Source: Spartobacteria bacterium (GTDB lineage Bacteria > Verrucomicrobiota > Verrucomicrobiia > Chthoniobacterales > UBA10450). Taken from it: a stretch of 64,000 nt of DNA. The DNA lies in assembly GCA_003134785.1 (NCBI GenBank), contig PLCN01000017.1, positions 62,001 to 126,000 of the forward strand. Reading direction: 5' to 3'. The notes beneath the pieces were generated by a model. That model had not been told where the DNA came from. It was given only the letters and a program-made list of their open reading frames with translations, and did no database searches. Position 1 is the stretch's first letter, and each line of letters begins with the position of its first letter. A program made the position numbers and the translations under genes. Below are positions 6,884 through 34,461 of the stretch, piece after piece.

Positions 6884-7036
6884 CATCATCCCGAGCCGCG
6901 CAGACGGGGAGGGACCTCGCACCTGCAAATTGCGGCACCGAAAACAAGCGAGCTGGGCTGACGGAAACGCGCAATGTAACGCGAAAGCGGACGACCGTTT
7001 GCGAGGTCCCTCGCCGTCTGCGCGGCTCGGGATGAC
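6884..7036. repeat. Family B long inverted repeat
   Basis: Arms CATCATCCCGAGCCGCGCAG and CTGCGCGGCTCGGGATGAC enclose about 100 bp. The interior holds GAGGGACCTCGC, its complement GCGAGGTCCCTCGCC, and a shared motif TGCAAATTGCGGCACCG. It ends 2 bp before the uvrB stop codon. Copies are at 20173 and 34302, with a half copy at 32591. Confidence 0.8.
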
Positions 7037-7038
7037 AG

Positions 7039-9315
7039 CTACACCCGCGAGCCCCGCCGACGCTGGGCGCCGCCGCGCGAGTATTTCACCGGCCTGCGTT
7101 TCGGCTCGATTTTCGTCAGGCCGGTGCCGCTCTTCACTTCCATGATCTGATCGCGCAAAAGCGCGGCGCGTTCGAACTCCAAGTTGGCGGAGGCGCTTTG
7201 CATCTCGTCTTCCAGTTCGCGCAGCAACTCGGTGAGATTGAAATCGCCGCCTGCTTCCTGGATCACCGACGCGGCGATTTCGCGGCCGCGCAAAATGGTG
7301 TGCAGACTCTCCTGGATCGCGCGCTTCACCGTCGTCGGCGTGATCCCGTGCTTCTCGTTGTACTCCATCTGCTTGGTGCGCCGGTAATCGGAGATCGAGA
7401 TGAGCGCTTGCATGCTTTGCGTGATGGTGTCGGCGAAGAGAACCACCTCGCCGTTGATGTGGCGCGCGGCCCGCCCAGCGGTTTGGATGAGGGAAGTCTG
7501 GCTGCGCAGGAATCCTTCTTTGTCGGCATCGAGAATGCAAACGAGTGAGACTTCGGGAAGGTCGAGTCCTTCGCGGAGTAGATTAATGCCGACGAGAATG
7601 TCGAAGTCGGCCGCGCGCAATCCGCGCAGGATTTCCACGCGCTCGATGGTGTCGATATCGCTGTGCAGATAACGCACCTTCAGCCCGACATCGCGCAGAT
7701 AATCCGATAAATCTTCCGCCGTGCGTTTGGTTAGCGTTGTGACCAGAACGCGCTCCTGTTTTTCAACTCGCTGTCGGCAAAGGTCGATCGTCTCATCGAT
7801 CTGATTCTTCAGCGGCTTCAAGGTGATTTTCGGATCGAGCAGTCCGGTCGGTCGAATAATCTGTTCGACGACGAGCGGCGCTCCCGGCGTGTGCACATCG
7901 AACTCTTCCGGCGGCTGGTCCGTCCGGCTTACGATCGCCTTCCCGTTAGCCGTTGGGCGTTGCGGTAGCGGCGCTCTATGAGCGCCGTCCTGAAGCGTTC
8001 GGGGGTCATAGACCGCCGCTACAGATTCGCCCGCCACCACAAACGGCACCAGTTCCTCCTCGCCGATCCGTTCCCGCTTATGCGGAAAGTATCCTTTGTT
8101 CCCCACGACGCTGTTCTTGATCTCGAACTCGGCCGGCGTCGCGCTCACATAAGTGAGCTGGTTTGTCATCCCCATGAATTCCTTGAAATTCAGCGGCCGA
8201 TTATCGAGCGCGCTCGGCAACCGGAACCCATATTCCACCAGCACCGTTTTCCGCGAACGATCGCCCTCATACATCCCGCCGATCTGCGGAATCGTGGCGT
8301 GCGATTCATCCACGACCAGCAGGTAATCTTTCGGGAAAAAATCGAGGAGCGTGAACGGCTTCGATCCCGGCATCCGGCCGGAAAGATGCCGGGAATAATT
8401 CTCGATCCCGTTACAGAATCCCATCTCCTGCAACATCTCCAGGTCGTACTCCGTCCGCATTTTCAGGCGTTGCGCTTCGAGCAGCTTGCTCTGCGATTCG
8501 AGTTCGACAATGCGATGGTCCAGCTCGTTCCGGATCGACGAGAGCGCCCGATTCAACTTATCCGCGGGCGTGACGAATTGCTTCGCGGGATAAAAGGTAA
8601 TGAGGCTCAGCGTCTCGTGCGCATGACCGGTGAGTGGATCGAACCGCGTGATCGCGTCGATCTCGTCGCCGAAAAATTCGAGCCGGATCGCTTCTTCATC
8701 CGCGGTGGCGGGGTAAACTTCCACAACATCGCCGCGCACGCGGAATTTGCCGCGCGAGAAATTCATGTCGTTGCGCTCGTAAAGCATGTCCACGAGCCGG
8801 CCCAGCACGGCTTCACGGCTGATCTGCTGTCCGCGTTTCACGGTGAGAAGCATGCGCAGGTAATCCTCGGGCGACGTGACGCCGTAGATGCAGGAGACGC
8901 TCGCAACCACGATCGTGTCACGCCGGGAAAGCAGCGCACTCGTCGCGGAAAGCCGAAGCCGCTCGATCTCTTCGTTGATGGACGAATCCTTCTCGATGTA
9001 GGTGTCGGAACGCGGGATGTAGGCTTCCGGCTGATAATAATCGAAGTAGCTGACGAAGTATTCGACCGCGTTGCGCGGGAAGAATTGTTTGAACTCGGAG
9101 TAGAGCTGCGCCGCGAGCGTCTTGTTGTGGGAAATGACGAGCGTGGGCCGATCCAGCTCGCGAATGACATTGGCCATCGTGAAGGTCTTCCCCGAGCCGG
9201 TCACGCCGAGGAGCGTTTGATGGTGATTGCCAGCCTCAATCGACTTCAACAGCTTCGCGATCGCCTGGCTTTGATCGCCCCGCGGCTTGTAGTTGGATTC
9301 GAGCTCAAACGCCAT
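7039..9315 (-). CDS. uvrB: Excinuclease ABC subunit B with an ~80-residue insertion
   Basis: UvrB is the helicase-like damage-verification subunit of nucleotide excision repair. From the chosen start ([19 protein letters not shown]) the protein has 758 residues against about 670-700 usually. Seen in order: P-loop GVTGSGKT at 37-44, the beta-hairpin [16 protein letters not shown] box [21 protein letters not shown], then [13 protein letters not shown], helicase motifs [10 protein letters not shown] and [17 protein letters not shown] and a C-terminal UVR coiled coil. Between EFEIKNS and LVVEQII about 80 extra residues occur, partly encoded by a family D repeat. The frame stays open upstream to 9531, but that part translates a family C repeat and was rejected. 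Confidence 0.95.
7961..8023. repeat. Family D palindromic repeat inside uvrB
   Basis: TGCGGTAGCGGCGCTCTATG at one end and GGGTCATAGACCGCCGCTACA at the other form an imperfect palindrome. A related intergenic copy is at 20464-20510. Here the element is read in frame within uvrB, at about residues 431-452, and adds no stop codon. Confidence 0.7.
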
Positions 9316-20172: not shown

Positions 20173-20326
20173 GTCATCCCGAGCCGCGCAGACGGCGAGG
20201 GACCTCATAGTTGCAATTTGCGCCACGCAGAGAACCGCGGCGCGCTCTAACGGACACGCGCGATGGATCGCGGAAGCGGTGAAGCGCTTGCGAGGTCCCT
20301 CGCCGTCTACGCGGCTCGGGATGACA
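20173..20326. repeat. Family B long inverted repeat
   Basis: CATCCCGAGCCGCGCAGACG at the left and GTCTACGCGGCTCGGGATGA at the right, with GGCGAGGGACCTC and GAGGTCCCTCGCC inside and TTGCAATTTGCGCCACG in the middle. It follows the lysS stop by about 20 bp and, with the family D copy next to it, occupies the 361 bp gap between convergent lysS and the regulator gene. Confidence 0.8.
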
Positions 20327-20463
20327 ACAACGCGTGGTCGTTTGTTCGGAGCTTCCTAATCTTCCCGAAGGTTTTCGCCTTCGCCGGATGAAGCGTGGCG
20401 GCGTGCGAATCCTGCGCTCCAACCATCTTATCAACACTCGCGCGGCCGGCTGAAAATGTTTCT

Positions 20464-20515: not shown

Positions 20516-21340
20516 TCAAATGGCGCGTTCGGCCACCCATTGCACGGCGAAGCGTGCGACCTGCCGCGCGTTCTCCAAATTCAACTTTTCCTTAATGTGG
20601 CTCCGATGCGTCTCGACCGTTTTCGGGCTGAGGTGCAGCGCCTTCGCGATCGTTTTGATTTCCTTTCCCGCCCCGATCATTTCGAGCACTTCCAACTCGC
20701 GGTCGCTTAGCCGGTCGGTGATTTCTTCGTCGGGTGAAATGCGGTTTACCACCACTTTCGAAATTACCTGGCTCGCCATTTTCGGGCTCAAGTAAGTGTG
20801 ACCATCCATGACTGCGCGCACCGCTTCCAGCACACTCCCGAGTGCTTCCTGTTTGGTGACATAACCGCGCGCACCCGCGCGCAACGAGCGCACCGCGTAA
20901 AGCGATTCGTCGTGCATGGAAAGAATGAGGACGGCCACACGCGGAAATTCCGCCACGATCATTTTCGTTAACTCGATTCCGTTCGTCCCCTTCAATCCCA
21001 GATCGGCAATAACCAGATGCGGTTTCGTTTTTCGGATAACATCCATGGCCTCGCCCGCGCTGGTGGCTTCGCCGCAAACCGAAAAGCCGTCGTCAGAATT
21101 GAGCAGCTGGATCAACCCGTGCCGGAAAAGCGGATGATCGTCCACCACCACGATGCGAATCGATTCGGGCAACGCGCATTTCGGATTGGCCACGACTCCG
21201 CTGCCGAGGCCGCTGGTCGATTTCACATCCGGCTCGACCGCCTTCCTTCTCGCTTCTTTGCCATCAGGCGCGGAGGTAGCCGTTAACTTGGTGGAGTCGC
21301 GTTGTTTCGGTTGTCTTAATTTTGTTGGGACAGCAGCCAT
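20516..21340 (-). CDS. NarL/LuxR-family response regulator
   Basis: 274 residues from the ATG at 21340; the frame extends 13 codons further only to a TTG. After a 65-residue unstructured lead rich in Ala, Lys and Thr there is a receiver domain (IRIVVVDDHPLFRHGLIQLL, phosphorylated Asp in HLVIADLGLKGTNGIEL, switch Ser in VLILSMHDES, Lys in GYVTKQEALG). A C-terminal LuxR-type helix-turn-helix follows (LSDRELEVLEMIGAGKEIKT, then ALHLSPKTVETHRSHIKEKL). The long N-terminal lead is unusual for NarL-type regulators. It follows the histidine kinase on the same strand and is presumably its partner. Confidence 0.9.
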   Translation of the reverse strand: MAAVPTKLRQPKQRDSTKLTATSAPDGKEARRKAVEPDVKSTSGLGSGVVANPKCALPESIRIVVVDDHPLFRHGLIQLLNSDDGFSVCGEATSAGEAMDVIRKTKPHLVIADLGLKGTNGIELTKMIVAEFPRVAVLILSMHDESLYAVRSLRAGARGYVTKQEALGSVLEAVRAVMDGHTYLSPKMASQVISKVVVNRISPDEEITDRLSDRELEVLEMIGAGKEIKTIAKALHLSPKTVETHRSHIKEKLNLENARQVARFAVQWVAERAI

Positions 21341-23433: not shown

Positions 23434-23668
23434 GCGTAAATGAGCAGCCCGGCGACGTCAACGAATGAGGTCGTTCTCTCACGAGCTCGCACAACAAAAA
23501 CTCAGCTAAGTCGCGTAATTAGTTAGTTACGCTGCTTCCGCCGAGCCCCCCTATTTTCCATTGCACGTATCGACGCGATTCAATACACTCTCAATCGTGC
23601 CGCCTTCCCCCGGTCAAAACCCCGCAATGGCAGAAATAGACGAAACTTTTTCGTCTACTTCTCGTTAG

Positions 23669-24031
23669 ATGGTGAGCGCGTTTACCCATACTGATACGCT
23701 AAGGATGCTCATCGAGTGTTCGCAGCCGCTGGATCAGATCAAAGCCGAGCTCGGGAAGCACCCGTTCGACACCAACGAGTGCTTGTTTGTTATTACTCCC
23801 GCTCATATGCGCGATATTCTTGAGCGATTCCTTTCCGGCGCGCTGTCAGCAGAGCAGGTGGAAGACTGGGCGAACCTCATTGAGATGCGCGATGGCCTTG
23901 AATTCGCCGATGGAGAAGACGGACCATCATGTAAGTGTCTACACGAGCTCGCGAACCCGTTATTGACGGAACCGCTGACGAAGAAGTCGGCAGAAAGGAT
24001 GCGTAATGTGCTTGCCGCACAAACCATCTAA
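23669..24031 (+). CDS. Cassette 1: small hypothetical protein
   Basis: 120 residues. The ATG at 23669 is the last two bases of the integron core GTTAGAT plus the next G, and the TAA stop is part of the ATCTAAC left core of the following attC. The gene therefore fills the cassette exactly. A start at 23708 region would also be possible but is less economical. The protein looks helical and soluble (MRDILERFLSGALSAEQVED then WANLIEMRDGL, later ELANPLLTEPLTKKSAERMR). I recall similar acidic proteins among cassette-borne and immunity-like families, but no function can be assigned. Confidence 0.7.
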   Translation: MVSAFTHTDTLRMLIECSQPLDQIKAELGKHPFDTNECLFVITPAHMRDILERFLSGALSAEQVEDWANLIEMRDGLEFADGEDGPSCKCLHELANPLLTEPLTKKSAERMRNVLAAQTI

Positions 24032-24148
24032 CCGCTCAGTGGAGCTAACCGCCACCCGCCGTGCGTCCACATTTCAGATGACCAAGCCATTTTCACCTCG
24101 AACCGCGCTCGCTTCCGGTGGCGGTAGCTCACTTCTGTCTCGTTAGAT
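24026..24148 (+). other. attC recombination site 1
   Basis: ATCTAAC at 24026-24032 and GTTAGAT at 24142-24148 are exact complements. Inside, GTGGAGCTAACCGCCACC pairs with GGTGGCGGTAGCTCAC on the other side, leaving single unpaired bases on one arm only, as in the extrahelical bases that direct strand choice in known attC sites. The central loop is about 60 bp. Total 123 bp. Confidence 0.85.
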
Positions 24149-24149
24149 C

Positions 24150-24686
24150 GTGAAGGCGTGTGGTATGTTCTTCGTCGGACTAGCATTGATGCTCCACATC
24201 CCCTGCGTGCTCGCGCAATACATGATTCCCTCTCCTCTGCCCGAAGGCCCGCTGACCTATCACGGCCCAAACGGCGAGGTGCCGATTCCCCCACTGTTTG
24301 AAGCCGTCGTCAGAAAGGACGCACAGCGCGTCGACGCCCTGCTTACGCAAGGCGCCGACGCCAATGAGATATGCCCATGCGGCACATCTCCGATCCAAGC
24401 GGCTGTCTCTCAGGCCAAGGATGCTCACATCACCGAGCTTCTGCTCGCGCACGGCGCAGACCCGAATCGACGCACTCCGAAAAATCTAAAGGGCCACACC
24501 AATGACTGGACACCACTCTTCTACGCGATCTACGACAAGCGCGCTGATCTAGTTTCGCTTCTGCTTCGTTACCACGCGAAGACAGACTTGGTGGATGTTT
24601 AGCGGAAGACGCCGCTCCAGTGGGCGCGCGAGCAGAAAGCTTCCGACATTGTTGCCTTACTTCAAAGCGCTGGGGCGAAGCGATGA
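24150..24686 (+). pseudogene. Cassette 2: secreted ankyrin-repeat protein with in-frame TAG
   Basis: GTG start 2 bp after the attC core. A signal peptide (MFFVGLALMLHIPCVLAQ) precedes ankyrin repeats: LFEAVVRKDAQRVDALLTQG, SPIQAAVSQAKDAHITELLL and TPLFYAIYDKRADLVSLLLR. A TAG at 24600-24602 stops translation after residue 150, but the same frame continues RKTPLQWAREQKASDIVALL and ends at TGA 24684-24686, 3 bp before the next attC. This matches the last ankyrin unit expected, so the TAG is a premature stop. The truncated 150-residue protein could still fold, or the TAG could be read through at low level. Confidence 0.75.
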
Positions 24687-24689
24687 ACG

Positions 24690-24811
24690 ATCTAACCAAG
24701 TCGATGGAGCCAACCCCACCCGACTTGTTTATGAGCTTGCTCTTGGTTCAACTTTCCTTCTGTAGCCCACCGCGGGCCTCGGCGGCGTGGCTCCTCTTGT
24801 TCTCGTTAGAT
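24690..24811 (+). other. attC recombination site 2
   Basis: ATCTAAC at 24690-24696 and GTTAGAT at 24805-24811. Inner arms GATGGAGCCAACCCCACCC and GGCGGCGTGGCTCC pair with one-sided bulges. 122 bp. The left arm (TGGAGCCAACNCCNCCCGACTTG type) is shared with the site at 29943. Confidence 0.88.
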
Positions 24812-24866
24812 GGTTAAAGCTTGCCACCTCACCCTCGAAGCCCCCAAGCTCAAACGAAGAAAATGA
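24810..24866 (+). other. Micro-ORF overlapping the cassette 3 gene (ATGA)
   Basis: An ATG created by the GTTAGAT core plus the next G opens an 18-codon frame (MVKACHLTLEAPKLKRRK) that ends with TGA overlapping the ATG of the LprI-like gene as AATGA. This is an arrangement typical of translational coupling. Whether it is translated is inferred only from layout, and the same layout recurs at 29667-29684. Confidence 0.4.
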
Positions 24867-25240
24867 AGATACCAACACTACTCGCCGCTTGGACTGCTCT
24901 TGTGATTATGGCCGTGCCTTTTGAATCCAAAGGCAAAGATCCTGACTTCAAGCCACCGGGGACAGAGGAAACTGCCTCGGTGGACCAAGCCAATGCTCAA
25001 CTCGACGCAGTCTATAAACGCCTGATGAGCAAACTGGATGCGGACGGGCAGAAGGCTTTGAAAGAAGCCGAACGCTCATGGATCAAGTGGCGTGATGATG
25101 AAGCCGTTCTGATGGCGCGCGCGGGCGGCGCGATCGGTGGCAGCGGCTTGCGGGAGGATTTTTTGAAAGCGCAAGCCAGGTTAATCAGCCAGCGAACGGA
25201 GGTCCTGAGCGAATACGCCAAGCAGTCTACTGGCAACTAG
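24863..25240 (+). CDS. Cassette 3: secreted LprI/DUF1311-like protein
   Basis: 125 residues with a signal peptide (MKIPTLLAAWTALVIMAVPF then ESKG). The mature part carries the LprI N-terminal-domain pattern: DQANAQLDAVYKRLMSKL, LKEAERSWIKWRDDEAVLMA, RLISQRTEVLSEYAKQ. This family includes periplasmic lysozyme inhibitors, but lacks the usual pair of cysteines here, so inhibition is not assured. The start at 24863 gives the signal peptide; the longer TTG frame from 24821 was rejected. It follows attC 24690-24811 and has no complete attC behind it. Confidence 0.75.
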   Translation: MKIPTLLAAWTALVIMAVPFESKGKDPDFKPPGTEETASVDQANAQLDAVYKRLMSKLDADGQKALKEAERSWIKWRDDEAVLMARAGGAIGGSGLREDFLKAQARLISQRTEVLSEYAKQSTGN

Positions 25241-25423
25241 TGCAGGAACACCGCACCGCCTGACCAGGCAAGCAGCGTTGGAGAGAAGCTTTATCATCTG
25301 ATTTTCGTCAGGTGGTTCGCATCTCCCCCTTGTGACATCGATAACCCTTTTTCAACCTGGTTTTCCACGTATCGTTTCTGCGGCCGGTTAGGTCTGATTG
25401 CCCAGTTTTATCCGCGAGAAATT

Positions 25424-26626
25424 ATGCTTCGCAACACATTGAAAACGTCTCCGCTACTGTTCTTGTTCCTTCTTGCCCTCGCAGTCGACAACGCCGCCGC
25501 CGATCGCCTTGGTGAGCCGGTAGTCAGGGAGACGGTCGACAAAATCATTCGGCCGCTCATGCAGGCACACAACCTCCCCGGAATGGCTGTTGCAGTCGCC
25601 ATCGATGGGAAAAGCACCTTCTGCAACTACGGCGTGGCTTCCCGGGAAACTGGGCAGCCCATTACGAACGAAACACTCTTCGAGCTCGGCTCGATCAGCA
25701 AGACCTTCACGGCCACGCTGGCTGCGTATGCCCAGCTCAACGGAGATCTTTCCTTGTCCGAGAGCGTCAGTAAATATCTACCATCCTTGCGCGGCAGCAG
25801 TTTCGACAAAATCAGTCTCCTCCATCTGGGGACCCATACCTCCGGCGGTTTGCCGCTGCAGGTTCCGGAAAACATCAAGAACACCGATCAACTGATGGAA
25901 TACCTCAAGCATTGGCACCCCCCTTATGCCGCCGGCACCTATCGGATGTACTCCAACGTGGGTATTGGATTGCTAGGCATGGCGACGGCCGAGAGAATGC
26001 ACCGGTCCTTCGAGGATGCGATGGAAAGAACGCTTCTTCCCGCGCTCGGCCTGACTCAAAGCTATATCAACGTGCCTACCGATCAGATGCCGCGCTACGC
26101 GCAGGGTTATACCGCCGACGATAAGCCGATTAGAGTGAGTCCAGGGGTCCTGGCGTCCGAGGCGTATGGTATCAAGTCGTGTTCGTCTGATATGATCCGA
26201 TTCCTGATCGCCAACATGCAACCGACCCCTCTCGGTTCCGTGGAGAAGGATGATAAATTACATCACGCAATTACAGATACCCACACTGGTTACTTTAGGG
26301 CGGGTGAAATGACGCAAGATCTGATCTGGGAGCAATATCCCTTTCCGGTCGAGTTGAAGCGTTTGTTGGCCGGCAATTCGTCGACAATGATCAACGAGGC
26401 CACGGCCGTTACGCAGCTGAGTAAACCGTTGCCGCCCCAGGCGAATGTGCTGATCAACAAGACTGGATCTACCAATGGCTTTGCCGCGTATGTGGCTTTC
26501 ATTCCCGCAAAACAAATGGGCATCGTGATACTCGCCAACAAAAGGTACGATATCGATCAAAGAGTTACCGCTGCATACGAGATCTTGACTCAACTTGATC
26601 TGCGATCTTCCTCGACAAACAATTAA
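25424..26626 (+). CDS. Class C (AmpC-type) serine beta-lactamase
   Basis: 400 residues, typical length. A signal peptide (LLFLFLLALAVDNAAA) precedes the full set of class C active-site motifs: S90-I-S-K93 in LFELGSISKTFTATL, Y176-S-N178 in GTYRMYSNVGIGLLG, and K346-T-G348 in VLINKTGSTNGFAAYVAF. EAYGIKSCSSDMIRFL and GIVILANKRY are also AmpC-like rather than generic esterase/PBP4b. It would hydrolyse beta-lactams in the periplasm; the substrate range cannot be read. No divergent ampR regulator is present. It lies between two cassette runs; a GTTAGGT core-like heptamer occurs at 25387-25393, but no matching ACCTAAC is found downstream. Confidence 0.88.
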   Translation: MLRNTLKTSPLLFLFLLALAVDNAAADRLGEPVVRETVDKIIRPLMQAHNLPGMAVAVAIDGKSTFCNYGVASRETGQPITNETLFELGSISKTFTATLAAYAQLNGDLSLSESVSKYLPSLRGSSFDKISLLHLGTHTSGGLPLQVPENIKNTDQLMEYLKHWHPPYAAGTYRMYSNVGIGLLGMATAERMHRSFEDAMERTLLPALGLTQSYINVPTDQMPRYAQGYTADDKPIRVSPGVLASEAYGIKSCSSDMIRFLIANMQPTPLGSVEKDDKLHHAITDTHTGYFRAGEMTQDLIWEQYPFPVELKRLLAGNSSTMINEATAVTQLSKPLPPQANVLINKTGSTNGFAAYVAFIPAKQMGIVILANKRYDIDQRVTAAYEILTQLDLRSSSTNN

Positions 26627-26824
26627 TGACAAAGTCCGGCGATGCACCGAGTGAACTCGTCCCTAGCTCGACACTTCATAGCTGAACGCCAGTATCGTTA
26701 GCTATCCGACGTTTTGGGTATCACGCTGTAGCCACGGCGCTCTGTCGCCGTGTAGTCGCCAGGCCAGGTCGCCCCAATAGCGCGCGACAGCTACAGCGCC
26801 GGGGGCTTACGAGATCGCTTCTAC

Positions 26825-27265
26825 TTAAATGCCACTCCCGCGCGGGGTCCGACCTTCATCGACATGGTGATAGTCCACCCAGGTTTGCACGTCGGCGCGA
26901 TCGCCGAAACCGTGCGCTCGTTTTATTTCCTCGAGTTCCTGGCTGCTTTCATCGCGCCAGCCGCGTTTGGCGACGAATGAATTCCAGAATTGAATCTTCT
27001 CCTCGTCAGCCCGGCCGAATTTCTCGAAACACCACTCCAGAATTTCTTCATCGCTTCCGCCGCGCGAGACCCGCTCCACCAGGAGCTGCGCATCGACGCC
27101 GAAGAAGCGGCAAAAACGCGCGTCGAAACAATCCCACACCGCGCAACCGGCATAGTTGTAATCCGCGGGAAGCAGGCCCTGGTTCTTCAGCCGAATCTTG
27201 TCCAGCATCCGGGCAAAGAAGATTACGCCCTTGGTCGGAGCATAATCGCTGCATGGCGTCTTCAT
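26825..27265 (-). CDS. DUF5069-family protein
   Basis: 146 residues, cytoplasmic. It contains FFARMLDKIRLKNQGLLPAD near the N-terminus and EILEWCFEKFGRADEEKIQF further on, the order seen in DUF5069 proteins, which are common in Verrucomicrobiota. The function is unknown. The stop is followed within 20 bp by a palindromic stretch (TGTAGCCACGGCGCTCTGTCGCCGTG type at 26727-26810). Confidence 0.75.
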   Translation of the reverse strand: MKTPCSDYAPTKGVIFFARMLDKIRLKNQGLLPADYNYAGCAVWDCFDARFCRFFGVDAQLLVERVSRGGSDEEILEWCFEKFGRADEEKIQFWNSFVAKRGWRDESSQELEEIKRAHGFGDRADVQTWVDYHHVDEGRTPRGSGI

Positions 27266-27306: not shown

Positions 27307-28956
27307 CTACAAGGTGTAAGCCTCAACCAGGGCCACGCCGACTCCGCCATTCTTCCCGGCAACAATGGCGGTGTAAGGCCCGGCCGGTAATGTGACGACG
27401 ATCGCGCTTTCCAGATCGTTCGATGGCGGGAGAGTTGTGGCGCGCACTTCGGCTTCCTGCGATTGCTGCGTCTGGTCGTTAGTCTTCCAGTTGTCATTAG
27501 ACCCCACCAGTGTGCCCTGACCATCGCGCAATTCCAGCGTGGGATCGGCTAGCGCATTCGTAATCCCCGGAGCGAGCGAAGGGCCAATGGCGCGCACGAT
27601 CAGCCGGCTAAAGCCACCGCTACCGCCGAGAATAAAGCCGCCGATCATGACATTCTCACCGGTCTCGACCAGGCCGCGCGTGCTGATGTTGGCCAGCTTC
27701 GAATCGGCGTCCGCTTCGAGATCGTAAGCTTCCACTACCGCGACACCGCTCGTGTCACCCACGCCGCGCACGATGGCGGTGTAACCTTGATTCGGTTCCA
27801 AGGTCGCGATCAGGGCCGACTCGAGATCGTTCGTCGGTGGGACATGAGTGGCAATAATATCCGCTTCCTGCGACTGCTGGCTTTGATCGTTTATCTTCCA
27901 GTTGTCGTTAGACGCGATAAGCGCGCCGTTATGATCGTGTAGCTCGAGACGCGGGTCAGCCAGGAAGCCGGAAATGCCCAGGTTAGCTAACGAGGGGCCT
28001 ATCGCGCGCAGAACCAATTTTTTCGTAACCGAACCCGCGGCAATGAAACCACCGATGAGGACATTGTCGCCGGTTTGGACACGGAGGCGGGTCGAGATGT
28101 TCAGCGGCCGGCCTCCGCCTGGTTCGAAGGCGAGATAACGTGGCGATTGCACGTCGCCCTGGACGAACGTACGCGATCCGTCCGTTTTCACGATGGCGAC
28201 GTAGCCGCCCTCCGTGTCGGACACGTAAAGGTCGCCATTGGGGGCGAAGGCGAGACCCAGAGCGCGGGTGAAGCCGGAAACGAAAACGGTTCGCGTTCCA
28301 TCCGGCGTGAACTTAAGGACATTCGGTCCGAACTCGGCCACGTAGATGTTGTTTGCGGAATCGACCGCGACACCTTGCGGGTCGTCCACGCCACTGGCAA
28401 AGAGGCTCTTCGTCCCACCCGAGGTAAATTTGTTGACCGTGCCGCTACCGGAATCGGATTCGAACAGGTTGCCCATATGGTCGAAGGCAAGACCGGTGGG
28501 GAGATTCAAACCGGCGGCGAAGGTCGTTCTCGTTCCGTCCGGGGCAAACTTGTAGATTGCATTGTCGTGGAGATCGCCAACGAAGATGTTACCTGCGCTA
28601 TCAATGACGACGCCGAGCGGCGTTACTAATGCACTGGTGAAAGTGTTCTTGGTGCCGTTAGGCGCGACCTTGATGATGGAATGCAGAACGACGTCGGACA
28701 TGACGAGATTACCCGAACTATCGAAGGCCAGCGCATAGGGGCGTGAGCTCATGACAAAAGTCGAACCGGTCGTGCCCGGCGCGAATTTAATCACGCGCTC
28801 CTTATCGCCGGTCGTGCGGAAACCTGCGACAACATACAAGTCTCCGCCGGCTGCCAGTACCGTGCTCCACGACAAACAAAGCGCGACACCAACCAAAAGC
28901 GCCCTCTGAAGGAAACAAAGCGAAAAGCCAAGGCGACCATCGCGAGGTTGCTTCAT
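27307..28956 (-). CDS. Secreted NHL/SMP-30-type beta-propeller with duplicated C-terminal domain
   Basis: 549 residues from the ATG at 28956, preceded by GGAG at 6 bp spacing; the longer frame to 29067 lacks a ribosome site. A signal peptide (LVGVALCLSWSTVLAAG) leads to about six NHL-like blades (ALAFDSSGNLVMSDVVLHSI, GVVIDSAGNIFVGDLHDNAI, GLAFDHMGNLFESDSGSGTV, GVAVDSANNIYVAEFG). Two copies of a roughly 120-residue domain follow: each has LNISTR or ANISTR, IGGFI, RAIGPSL, LELxDxxGxL, SNDNWK, QQSQEA, NDLESA, YTAIV and VEAYxL. That domain is frequent at the ends of Verrucomicrobiota exported proteins. The ligand is unknown. Confidence 0.8.
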   Translation of the reverse strand: MKQPRDGRLGFSLCFLQRALLVGVALCLSWSTVLAAGGDLYVVAGFRTTGDKERVIKFAPGTTGSTFVMSSRPYALAFDSSGNLVMSDVVLHSIIKVAPNGTKNTFTSALVTPLGVVIDSAGNIFVGDLHDNAIYKFAPDGTRTTFAAGLNLPTGLAFDHMGNLFESDSGSGTVNKFTSGGTKSLFASGVDDPQGVAVDSANNIYVAEFGPNVLKFTPDGTRTVFVSGFTRALGLAFAPNGDLYVSDTEGGYVAIVKTDGSRTFVQGDVQSPRYLAFEPGGGRPLNISTRLRVQTGDNVLIGGFIAAGSVTKKLVLRAIGPSLANLGISGFLADPRLELHDHNGALIASNDNWKINDQSQQSQEADIIATHVPPTNDLESALIATLEPNQGYTAIVRGVGDTSGVAVVEAYDLEADADSKLANISTRGLVETGENVMIGGFILGGSGGFSRLIVRAIGPSLAPGITNALADPTLELRDGQGTLVGSNDNWKTNDQTQQSQEAEVRATTLPPSNDLESAIVVTLPAGPYTAIVAGKNGGVGVALVEAYTL

Positions 28957-29263
28957 AGCAAGCTCCATCACCTGCCCCACCATCTGCTTTACTCGCCGAG
29001 CTGTCTCGTGGCCGAGCTTAGTGGTGAAAAGATTGCCAGGGTTTTGCGGATCGCATTTGAATTCCATAGTCTATTAGAAAGAGATCGTGTTCCGCGCTGA
29101 GTTCAGAGAGTGAGGACAATAAACCGGCCATTTAGGACTTTTCTTGTCCGACAGGTTAATTCCGCGAGCGATAGATTGCTACCTATTCGTTCAAAGACCC
29201 AGAGTGGCGCCCGTGTAACGCGAGCAGGATAGAGACAACCGATACTGCCATAAGTAAGCCCGG

Positions 29264-29404: not shown

Positions 29405-29479
29405 CTCTACCATCTCTACCGTTTATCGTGATAGAGGATGAAACGCCGAATCCAATCGGAGTAAGCCTGCTCGGTCCGA

Positions 29480-29575
29480 ATGCTAAAAACGCTTGAGCCG
29501 AATAGCGTTACGGACCTGATCAAGGAGTTTCGGCTTGCGCGATTCTCGGAAGGAGGTTATCACTGGTGGCAATGA
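29480..29575 (+). pseudogene. Possible 5' fragment of a DUF985 cupin gene
   Basis: A 31-codon frame contains VTDLIKEFRLARFSEGGYHW, which resembles the N-terminal signature of DUF985 cupins (a helix, then hEPHPEGGYY). The frame ends at TGA at once. The match is short and several residues differ, so it could be chance. Confidence 0.3.
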
Positions 29576-29680
29576 CGCCTTTTAAGGCATTCCCCCTGGC
29601 AAGACAAGAAATAGGCGGCCGACTGACGCCTTTTTTCCCGTCAATATGACGTCCAATTCTCGTTAGATGCAGTTCCCCGC

Positions 29681-29923: not shown

Positions 29924-29942
29924 TGAGATTGCCACGCTCCGC

Positions 29943-30063
29943 ATCTAACCAATCACTGGAGCCAACGCCGCCCGACTTGTTAATTGAGCTTGTTCGCAGT
30001 GCAACGCGTTACGTGCGGCTTGCCGCGTTCTCGACGGCGTGGCTCATCTTGTTCTCCTTAGGC
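29943..30063 (+). other. attC recombination site 3
   Basis: Left core ATCTAAC at 29943-29949. Inner arms ACTGGAGCCAACGCCGCCC and GACGGCGTGGCTCA pair as in the other two sites. The right core reads CTTAGGC at 30057-30063, with C in place of the G that is normally fixed in GTTRRRY. The six following bases belong to the next cassette, so only the C is odd; it may prevent recombination. 121 bp. Confidence 0.8.
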
Positions 30064-30069
30064 CTCCTC

Positions 30070-31011
30070 ATGCGCATCGCCATTTTTCTGCTTTATGGTC
30101 TTTCTGTTGTGTTTGCGTCTGCCAATTTGGACGCGCAGCAGACGGATGCGTGGCAGCCATCTCCGGGACATACTCAAGTGCCGATATGGCCAAATGGGCC
30201 GCCTGATGCGCAACCAGTCAAGGGACCGGAGACGGTGCAAACCAACACTAAAGACCCGGTCGCCGGCAGGCCGTGGGTTTTTGCCGACAACGTGTCGCAG
30301 CCGACCATCACGGTCTACCCGCCGAAGGGAAAAAATACCGGTGTCGGCGTAGTCGTATTTCCAGGCGGAGGCTATCACATCGTGGCAATCGACCTTGAAG
30401 GGACCGAGATCTGTGACTGGCTAACCTCCCGGGGTATTACCGCTATCCTTTTGAAATATCGCGCGCCGACTCCACGAGTTGGCCCAAACCGAGAATCACC
30501 GCTAGCATTGCAGGATGCGCAAAGATCGGTCGGGCTGGTGCGCTTTCACGCTGCCGAGTGGAATATCGATCCGCACAAAATTGGAGTCATCGGCTTTTCG
30601 GCCGGCGGGGATATGGTCGCAGAGATGAGCACACACTATGGCAAACGTTTGTATCCGACTGTCGACGCGGCCGACAAAGAGAGCTGCCGTCCGGACTTTG
30701 CTATAGCTCTTTATCCGGGGCATCTGCTGGGCAACAAGGACGACAACAATTTTGAAATAAATCCGAATATTGCCGTTACCAGTAATACTCCGCCCACGTT
30801 TTTGCTCCAGGCCGAAGATGACCCGGTGGATCCTGTGAGGAACTCGCTCGTCTACTACATCGCGCTAAAGAAGGCTGGAGTTCCAGTGGAGATGCATTTG
30901 TATGCGCAGGGCGGCCATGCGTTTGGGCTGCGGCCAACGAAGTTTCCCATAACGCGATGGCCTCAGTTGGTGGAGACTTGGCTAAAGACAATCGGAATGA
31001 TTTCCGAATGA
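30070..31011 (+). CDS. Cassette 5: secreted alpha/beta-hydrolase (esterase, BD-FAE/axe-like)
   Basis: 313 residues; the ATG lies 6 bp after the cassette boundary. A signal peptide (IAIFLLYGLSVVFASANLDA) is present. The fold is a carboxylesterase: oxyanion segment VVVFPGGGYHIVA (GGGY as in HSL/BD-FAE-type acetyl esterases), nucleophile elbow VIGFSAGGDMVAE (Ser near 177), acid in LLQAEDDPVDPVRN, and His in YAQGGHAFGLRPT near 283. Such enzymes remove acetyl or feruloyl groups from plant polysaccharides or act as general esterases. At nearly 950 bp it is a large cassette gene, and signal peptides occur in three of the five cassettes. Confidence 0.85.
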   Translation: MRIAIFLLYGLSVVFASANLDAQQTDAWQPSPGHTQVPIWPNGPPDAQPVKGPETVQTNTKDPVAGRPWVFADNVSQPTITVYPPKGKNTGVGVVVFPGGGYHIVAIDLEGTEICDWLTSRGITAILLKYRAPTPRVGPNRESPLALQDAQRSVGLVRFHAAEWNIDPHKIGVIGFSAGGDMVAEMSTHYGKRLYPTVDAADKESCRPDFAIALYPGHLLGNKDDNNFEINPNIAVTSNTPPTFLLQAEDDPVDPVRNSLVYYIALKKAGVPVEMHLYAQGGHAFGLRPTKFPITRWPQLVETWLKTIGMISE

Positions 31012-31463
31012 CCCAAAGCCTAACCCCTATGTAGGGAGTCAAGCGCGGATGTAAGGTTTGGGTTGATTTTAGTTCATGTGTTTTTGAGTGGATTAGTGGT
31101 TGGGGTCAATCTTGGGAGCGCTTCCTCTTCCTCTTGCTCCGTTGCGTTTGTGTTCCAGCCCCGAAAGCCTTCGCGGTGCGTGCGGCCGAGCCGCAGCAGC
31201 AATTTGACTCCGAAAGCCGGTCTACGCGAAATCAAAGCCAACCATTGCTGGGCGCGCGAAGTTCCTGGCACTCGGATCGAGCCTTACAAGCTATGGAAGG
31301 TTACCGGCATCGACAAGACGCGTTGATTGTCGAGTTGAGAAAACCCAGGATGCCGCCGTGCTCGTGCTGAGGCATCGCGGGCAGATGCACAAAAAAGCGC
31401 GAAGAAAAAAAGGCCGCGCGGGGTGTCGGATGCGATTTTGCGGTGTATGGAAGTGGAATCGTC
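31012..31463. other. Intergenic stretch with orphan left attC core
   Basis: After GCCTAAC (31018-31024) and CCCCTATGTAGGG no right core GTTRRRY with matching inner arms is seen within 150 bp, so the last attC is truncated or diverged. The plus-strand frame to about 31326 (ending EPYKLWKVTGIDKTR) has coding-like composition but no recognisable start or family, and may be a remnant. Confidence 0.45.
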
Positions 31464-33011: not shown

Positions 33012-33299
33012 TCACGTTGCCCACAGATCGGCCTCAACCCGGCGGTAACCGGGCGCTTTGGAAGCGGCCGCCGCGCTGCCGCGATAAAACCAATCGCTCG
33101 GCACCGAGAGGCAATCTTCTGTCGGGCAATGCAAAGAATAACCACCATGAGAGTCCGGCGTGATATCGATCTGACGGCCCGTGATCGCTCTGTCGCATAA
33201 AACGCAGACGCGTTGATCGTCGAGGGAAAACCATTTTCGATGCGGATCAGCCGCTTGCAAAATCGCCAGTTTTTCTTCGGGGTGGAGATGTGATCTCAT
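33012..33299 (-). CDS. Small zinc-ribbon-like protein
   Basis: 95 residues from the ATG at 33299. RVCVLCDRAITGRQIDI and YSLHCPTEDCLSVPSDWF give two Cys pairs, CxxC and CxxxxC, in a zinc-ribbon-like layout. The frame continues upstream to 33455 (147 residues) without further motifs, so the start is uncertain. The function is unknown; similar short proteins occur in related genomes as far as I can recall. Confidence 0.6.
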   Translation of the reverse strand: MRSHLHPEEKLAILQAADPHRKWFSLDDQRVCVLCDRAITGRQIDITPDSHGGYSLHCPTEDCLSVPSDWFYRGSAAAASKAPGYRRVEADLWAT

Positions 33300-34301: not shown

Positions 34302-34461
34302 GGTCATCCCGAGCCGCGTACACGGCGAGGGACCTCACAGTCGCACTTTGCGGCACACAGGGAGGTTGAGGCCTGCGCCGGCGGCGGACGCCTAATCTAC
34401 CGCGGAAGCGATTGAGCGATTGCGAGGTCCCTCGGCGCGCTACGCCAGCCTCGGGATGACC
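34302..34461. repeat. Family B long inverted repeat
   Basis: GTCATCCCGAGCCGCGTACA at the left and CCAGCCTCGGGATGAC at the right, with GGCGAGGGACCTCAC and TGCGAGGTCCCTCGGC inside and TCGCACTTTGCGGCACAC in the middle. More diverged than the copies at 6884 and 20173. Confidence 0.75.

Follow-up and report, generated by a model that had tools for sequence, protein, structure and literature searches.

A class C beta-lactamase gene beside chromosomal-integron cassettes in a Spartobacteria bacterium, probably a captured terminal cassette that lost its attC site

The window (the whole 64,000-nucleotide stretch of DNA analysed here) carries a predicted class C beta-lactamase gene, ampC, flanked by two runs of integron gene cassettes (Table 1). 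We consider it probable that ampC is the captured terminal AmpC cassette of a chromosomal-integron array that lost its attC. The gene would have been captured as the last cassette, behind the LprI cassette; its own downstream attC would later have been lost, leaving the gene fixed in place, and the attC preceding it would have decayed as well. Entry through IntI-mediated recombination is what we infer. By the strict definition, which asks for an attC at the gene's own 3' end, ampC is not a cassette.

Table 1. Features around ampC in the window (positions count from its first nucleotide; R1 and R2 are the attC covariance models described in the text, the three strong sites having served to train R1).
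Feature	Position	Strand	Evidence or remark
Palindromic attI-like array head, start of run 1	23633..23663	+	GTTAG at 23664
Cassette gene 1, 120 aa	23669..24031	+	31% homologue between two attC in a congener array (L132 3787-4152)
attC site 1	24018..24156	+	R1 132.8 bits; R2 123 bits
Cassette gene 2, ankyrin repeats	24150..24602	+	Domain match
attC site 2	24682..24819	+	R1 110.5 bits
Cassette gene 3, LprI-like	24863..25240	+	Domain match
Decayed, shortened attC closing the LprI cassette (GCCTGAC...GTCAGGT), weak match	25250..25321	+	R1, R2 and half-site scores
GTTAGGT heptamer	25387..25393	+	About 30 bp before the ampC ATG; not supported as an R' core
ampC, predicted class C beta-lactamase	25424..26626	+	400-aa ORF, ATG start; N-terminal signal-like stretch
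Junction after ampC	26627..26829		No supported attC; congener similarity resumes at the DUF5069 gene
DUF5069 gene	26825..27265	-	72-76% orthologues in three congeners at other places, without ampC
NHL/beta-propeller protein gene	27307..29067	-	Domain match
N-terminal remnant of an integron integrase gene	29419..29578	-	tblastn with congener IntI, E down to 2e-11
attI-like array head of run 2	29608..29661	+	Palindrome like the run 1 head
First cassette gene of run 2, 80 aa	29681..29923	+	Position between head and attC
attC site 3	29935..30071	+	R1 86.7 bits
Terminal cassette gene of run 2, esterase-like	30070..31011	+	Start codon adjoins R'; GCCTAAC remnant at 31018-31024 after the stop

Judged by its sequence, the product of ampC is a true class C (AmpC) beta-lactamase and not an EstB-type esterase, because it passes the bla_class_C cut-off, its catalytic residues align with those of a known enzyme and it matches beta-lactamase structures. 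The bla_class_C model (NCBIfam NF033085) gives 546.9 bits against a cut-off of 415, an excess of 132 bits. Alignment to CMY-2 recovers the full class C motif set listed in the first-pass annotation, as SISK (S90/K93), YSN (176-178), EAYGIKS (246-252) and KTG (346-348), and superimposes the catalytic residues of SxxK, YxN and KTG (S90/K93, Y176/N178, K346-T347-G348) on those of CMY-2. The top solved-structure match is the beta-lactamase chain 6k8x (E = 8e-138), and the best structure matches are beta-lactamases. The protein also matches the Pfam Beta-lactamase family (1.4e-79), which is broad and takes in EstB-like esterases and penicillin-binding proteins, so that this match would suit either of these as well; against the class C score, the presence of YSN and KTG and the structural matches, such an identity is exceedingly improbable. 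Grouping with EstB-type esterases, which the first-pass annotation had named as the outcome fatal to its reading, is refuted by the same score.

The protein lies below each of the NCBIfam named-family cut-offs shown. Its highest specific score is to blaACC, and it resembles ACC-1 in this, in 57% identity and in its broad tree group, but at 494.6 bits it remains under the blaACC cut-off of 850 and is not an ACC member; nor is it an IDC member, at 370.5 bits under the blaIDC cut-off of 850. The N-terminus resembles a Sec signal peptide, and the enzyme is predicted to be a periplasmic serine beta-lactamase in which, following established class C chemistry, S90 would attack the beta-lactam while K93, Y176 and K346 complete the active site. 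Family membership suggests a function in beta-lactam resistance, and the gene is presumably expressed and would confer it. The neighbouring genes examined include no ampR-like regulator, and a search of 25230-26840 gave no match to a sigma-70-type promoter.

The neighbouring cassette runs are real and hold three full attC sites of a covariation-supported family, in keeping with the earlier description of the gene as sitting between cassette runs. An alignment of seven sites, taken from the window and two further contigs, shows an extended hairpin with compensatory changes: of its 24 pairs, 8 are altered on both sides. A covariance model (R1) that had the three strong window sites in its training set finds, at E <= 0.01, 22 attC matches in the window's own genome (4.39 Mb, 25 contigs), 121 in the congener G002 and 11-38 in six other congeners; a broader model (R2) was built from 150 sites. 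All eight genomes of the genus that were searched contain attC, as do 14 of 14 searched in the wider family, where the sites number in the hundreds. The matches in G002 are spread over many contigs (L126-L133) and amount to a very large chromosomal cassette load in one congener.

The same attC family stands beside the genome's own IntI integron, so one attC family and an IntI, the marks by which a chromosomal integron was judged, are both found for the arrays next to ampC. This IntI-type gene scores 464.9 bits against a cut-off of 265, and two attC sites of the window's family adjoin it. Its frame, the only near-full-length IntI frame in the genome (L042 4489-5496, G000:C10), is interrupted by an internal TGA, and a second copy is fragmentary (L044, G000:C22:2663-2978), for which reasons the integron may be inactive in its own genome. 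Congeners carry uninterrupted IntI copies.

Dispersed arrays in the host's family share a conserved palindrome at their start, the head, which ends in TTCTCG|TTAG and is like the sequence beside IntI; such heads open both window runs and occur at L042 4409, L123 137 and L171-L198. Exact CGNCTANTTCTCGTTAG matches number 28 in five genomes (reversed pattern, 0). Same-strand attC sites follow many of them, and an intI piece lies within 1.5 kb of only 4 of the 28. The heads may be attI sites that outlive their integrase, or else a dispersed insertion target. Separately, REP-like dispersed repeat units of the GAGGTCCCTCGCCG type occur in the window at 6885-7042, 20173-20331 and 34303-34437, some 13-14 kb apart.

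Run 1 reads, in order, attI-like palindrome, gene 1, ankyrin gene, LprI-like gene, degenerate attC and ampC. Run 2 is separated from ampC by the two opposite-strand genes (DUF5069 and NHL). Directly upstream of its head, in the classic divergent orientation, lies an intI remnant that the first reading of the sequence had overlooked. The fate of run 2 is similar to that of ampC: an intI remnant, a head, one small cassette, an attC and, last, an esterase gene followed by no more than a GCCTAAC remnant.

The junction upstream of ampC holds a weak but supported match to a decayed attC, also overlooked at first reading. The site at 25250-25321 scores 19.2 bits with R2 (E = 0.00099 over 10 kb) and 15.1 bits with R1 (E = 0.09 over 64 kb), and its half-sites compare with random window segments at p ~0.01 (5') and p ~0.07 (3'). 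ampC is in cassette orientation in the next-cassette slot behind it. The spacing from this weak match to the ampC ATG is ~100 bp, against only a few bases at genes 1 and 2 of run 1. The GTTAGGT at 25387, which the first-pass annotation had taken for a core-like heptamer, is where that annotation put it; as an R' core it was rejected, as it lacks the TCTCG context preceding nearly all R' cores here and a half-site profile of 147 sequences gives no match. It is probably a chance occurrence.

Downstream, the earlier statement that no complement to the core follows the gene is borne out. Between the ampC stop and run 2 the full attC model with filters off returns only weak matches of <= 6 bits, none of them less than 700 bp from the stop, and the best half-sites after the stop reach p 0.16 and 0.27 against random window segments. 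An attC remnant composed of GGCGATGCA near 26638 and ATCGTTAGCT near 26695, attC-like by eye, was likewise not significant against such segments. Because ampC lacks its own attC and a TGA interrupts the one near-full-length IntI frame of the genome, the gene can probably not be mobilised as a cassette now, and the suggestion that its position would allow this is unlikely to hold for the present day.

The gene does not appear to be an old inhabitant of this locus. Gene order in the congeners is largely kept (lysS, the gene at 20516, HK, a variable interval, orf31443, the gene at 33012, sigma factor), and the window content at ~23.1-31.4 kb is missing between HK and sigma/orf31443, in a comparison in which G003 is cut by a contig end and G002 and G007 are without some marker genes. 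No attC was found at the matching chromosomal interval in congeners. ampC is absent from six of seven congeners, and from the matching interval where this is assembled; DUF5069 orthologues (72-76%) lie at other loci in G003, G004 and G005, without ampC. DUF5069 paralogues are common in the host's order. AmpC is present in 5 of 83 family genomes (E <= 1e-60) and in 1 of 387 phylum genomes (E <= 1e-80). Congener G001 has its AmpC (L045 11982-13456) at a distance of ~340 bp from a gene for tRNA-Ala and not within an attC array.

Phylogeny gives the same answer. The AU test rejects a single clade for the five family AmpCs (p 0.0002), a grouping of the window AmpC with that of G001 (3e-6) and one with those of the sister-genus genomes G117 and G111 (0.003); a common origin with the family's other AmpCs is thus rejected. 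The nearest relatives of the window AmpC are AmpCs of Oxalobacteraceae/Burkholderiaceae (59-66% identity), the best identity to any relative found being 66%, to a Herbaspirillum MAG; no relative was found in viral contigs. The class C tree that had been proposed as a check places the protein nearest the ACC/betaproteobacterial group, in a modestly supported group (82/87) to which ACC-1 belongs as well and within which the exact sister is not settled. The G001 AmpC groups with Rhodomicrobium and cyanobacterial AmpCs.

Since there is no congener synteny and the AU tests reject a shared family gene, these comparisons indicate that the window ampC is not resident and was acquired horizontally by the lineage. 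The GC3 of ampC, 65.8% against 67-74% in local host genes, is close enough to suggest that the acquisition was not very recent, and would also suit an ancient resident gene beside which cassettes landed. That history is very improbable, with the gene missing from six of seven congeners, 386 of 387 sampled phylum genomes without AmpC at E <= 1e-80, and the one congener AmpC in a different context, beside tRNA-Ala, with common descent rejected; as a genus-level resident gene, ampC is already contradicted, and a resident gene with conserved synteny is rejected by the matching congener interval without it. The comparison of the locus in relatives that the first-pass annotation had proposed turned up absence at the matching place and no conserved synteny. 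Of the two origins which that annotation left standing, the resident soil beta-lactamase falls on this absence of synteny and on the AU tests, and the decayed cassette fares better (decayed attC, cassette orientation, absence from congeners, sister-genus AmpC with attC).

Two genomes of a sister genus have AmpC genes beside attC sites or half-sites. The two proteins, from G117 and G111, are 82% identical to each other and 56-59% identical to the window AmpC. The G117 locus (L123) has the order attI-like head, carbonic anhydrase gene, 5' part of an attC (770-894, 22.4 bits), AmpC, attC (2036-2180, 43 bits, E 5e-9) and MAPEG gene; near its 3' end the AmpC frame ends differently from that of G111, which may be decay or an assembly error. 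At the G111 locus (L124), an attC at 1024-1181 (57.5 bits) precedes an AmpC gene that contains a short run of N, and the 5' half-site of an attC downstream of the gene outscores each of 300 random segments. AmpC capture by chromosomal integrons in the sister genus is well supported, though both loci lie on short contigs of incomplete genomes (59-62% complete). Since these proteins belong to another AmpC lineage, they are evidence that such capture can happen here and not evidence of capture of the window gene.

Horizontal acquisition could also have taken another route, illegitimate recombination or an island insertion that joined ampC by chance to a broken array end. The missing attC of its own would fit this, as would the nearby DUF5069 and NHL genes, which are also rearranged relative to congeners and mark the interval as a general hotspot; blaCMY-2 has been reported to be a false neighbour of just this kind to a class 1 integron array (PMC7148499). 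Yet there is no long flanking direct repeat around ampC, no transposase was seen among the neighbouring genes examined, the gene occupies the next-cassette slot in cassette orientation, and AmpC capture does occur in the sister genus. We regard this other route as possible but doubtful. Against capture as a terminal cassette, the reading we favour, stand the absence of an attC after the stop, the ~100 bp gap before the ATG, the weakness of the decayed attC and the different lineage of the sister-genus AmpCs.

Gene cassettes that carry AmpC are almost unheard of. In 2020, a survey covering 20,836 ampC-like ORFs identified no true cassette among those already known, and went on to describe blaIDC (PMC7148499). 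blaIDC-1 and blaIDC-2, in class 1 integrons, are the known precedent and resemble the window ampC as class C genes associated with integron cassette arrays; they differ in being complete cassettes with attC, whereas the window gene lacks its own attC, is situated in a chromosomal array and falls on a different branch of class C. The window arrays are like sedentary chromosomal integrons and CALIN in their homogeneous attC runs, mostly unknown genes and partial lack of intI, but each opens with a conserved attI-like palindrome and one has an intI remnant alongside. In a 'Ca. Udaeobacter' MAG (Verrucomicrobia) with six beta-lactamases, resistance genes and mobile elements are reported not to be co-located (PMC7343977).

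The locus would illustrate how a captured gene can become fixed once its recombination site decays. AmpC next to attC in the chromosomal integrons of soil bacteria would indicate where AmpC cassettes can form. Quite possibly, and we put this forward tentatively, AmpC genes of several separate origins, that of the window included, have been captured as cassettes by the chromosomal integrons of the host's soil bacterial family, and these integrons may act in nature as a supply of AmpC cassettes separate from the class 1 integrons of the clinic.
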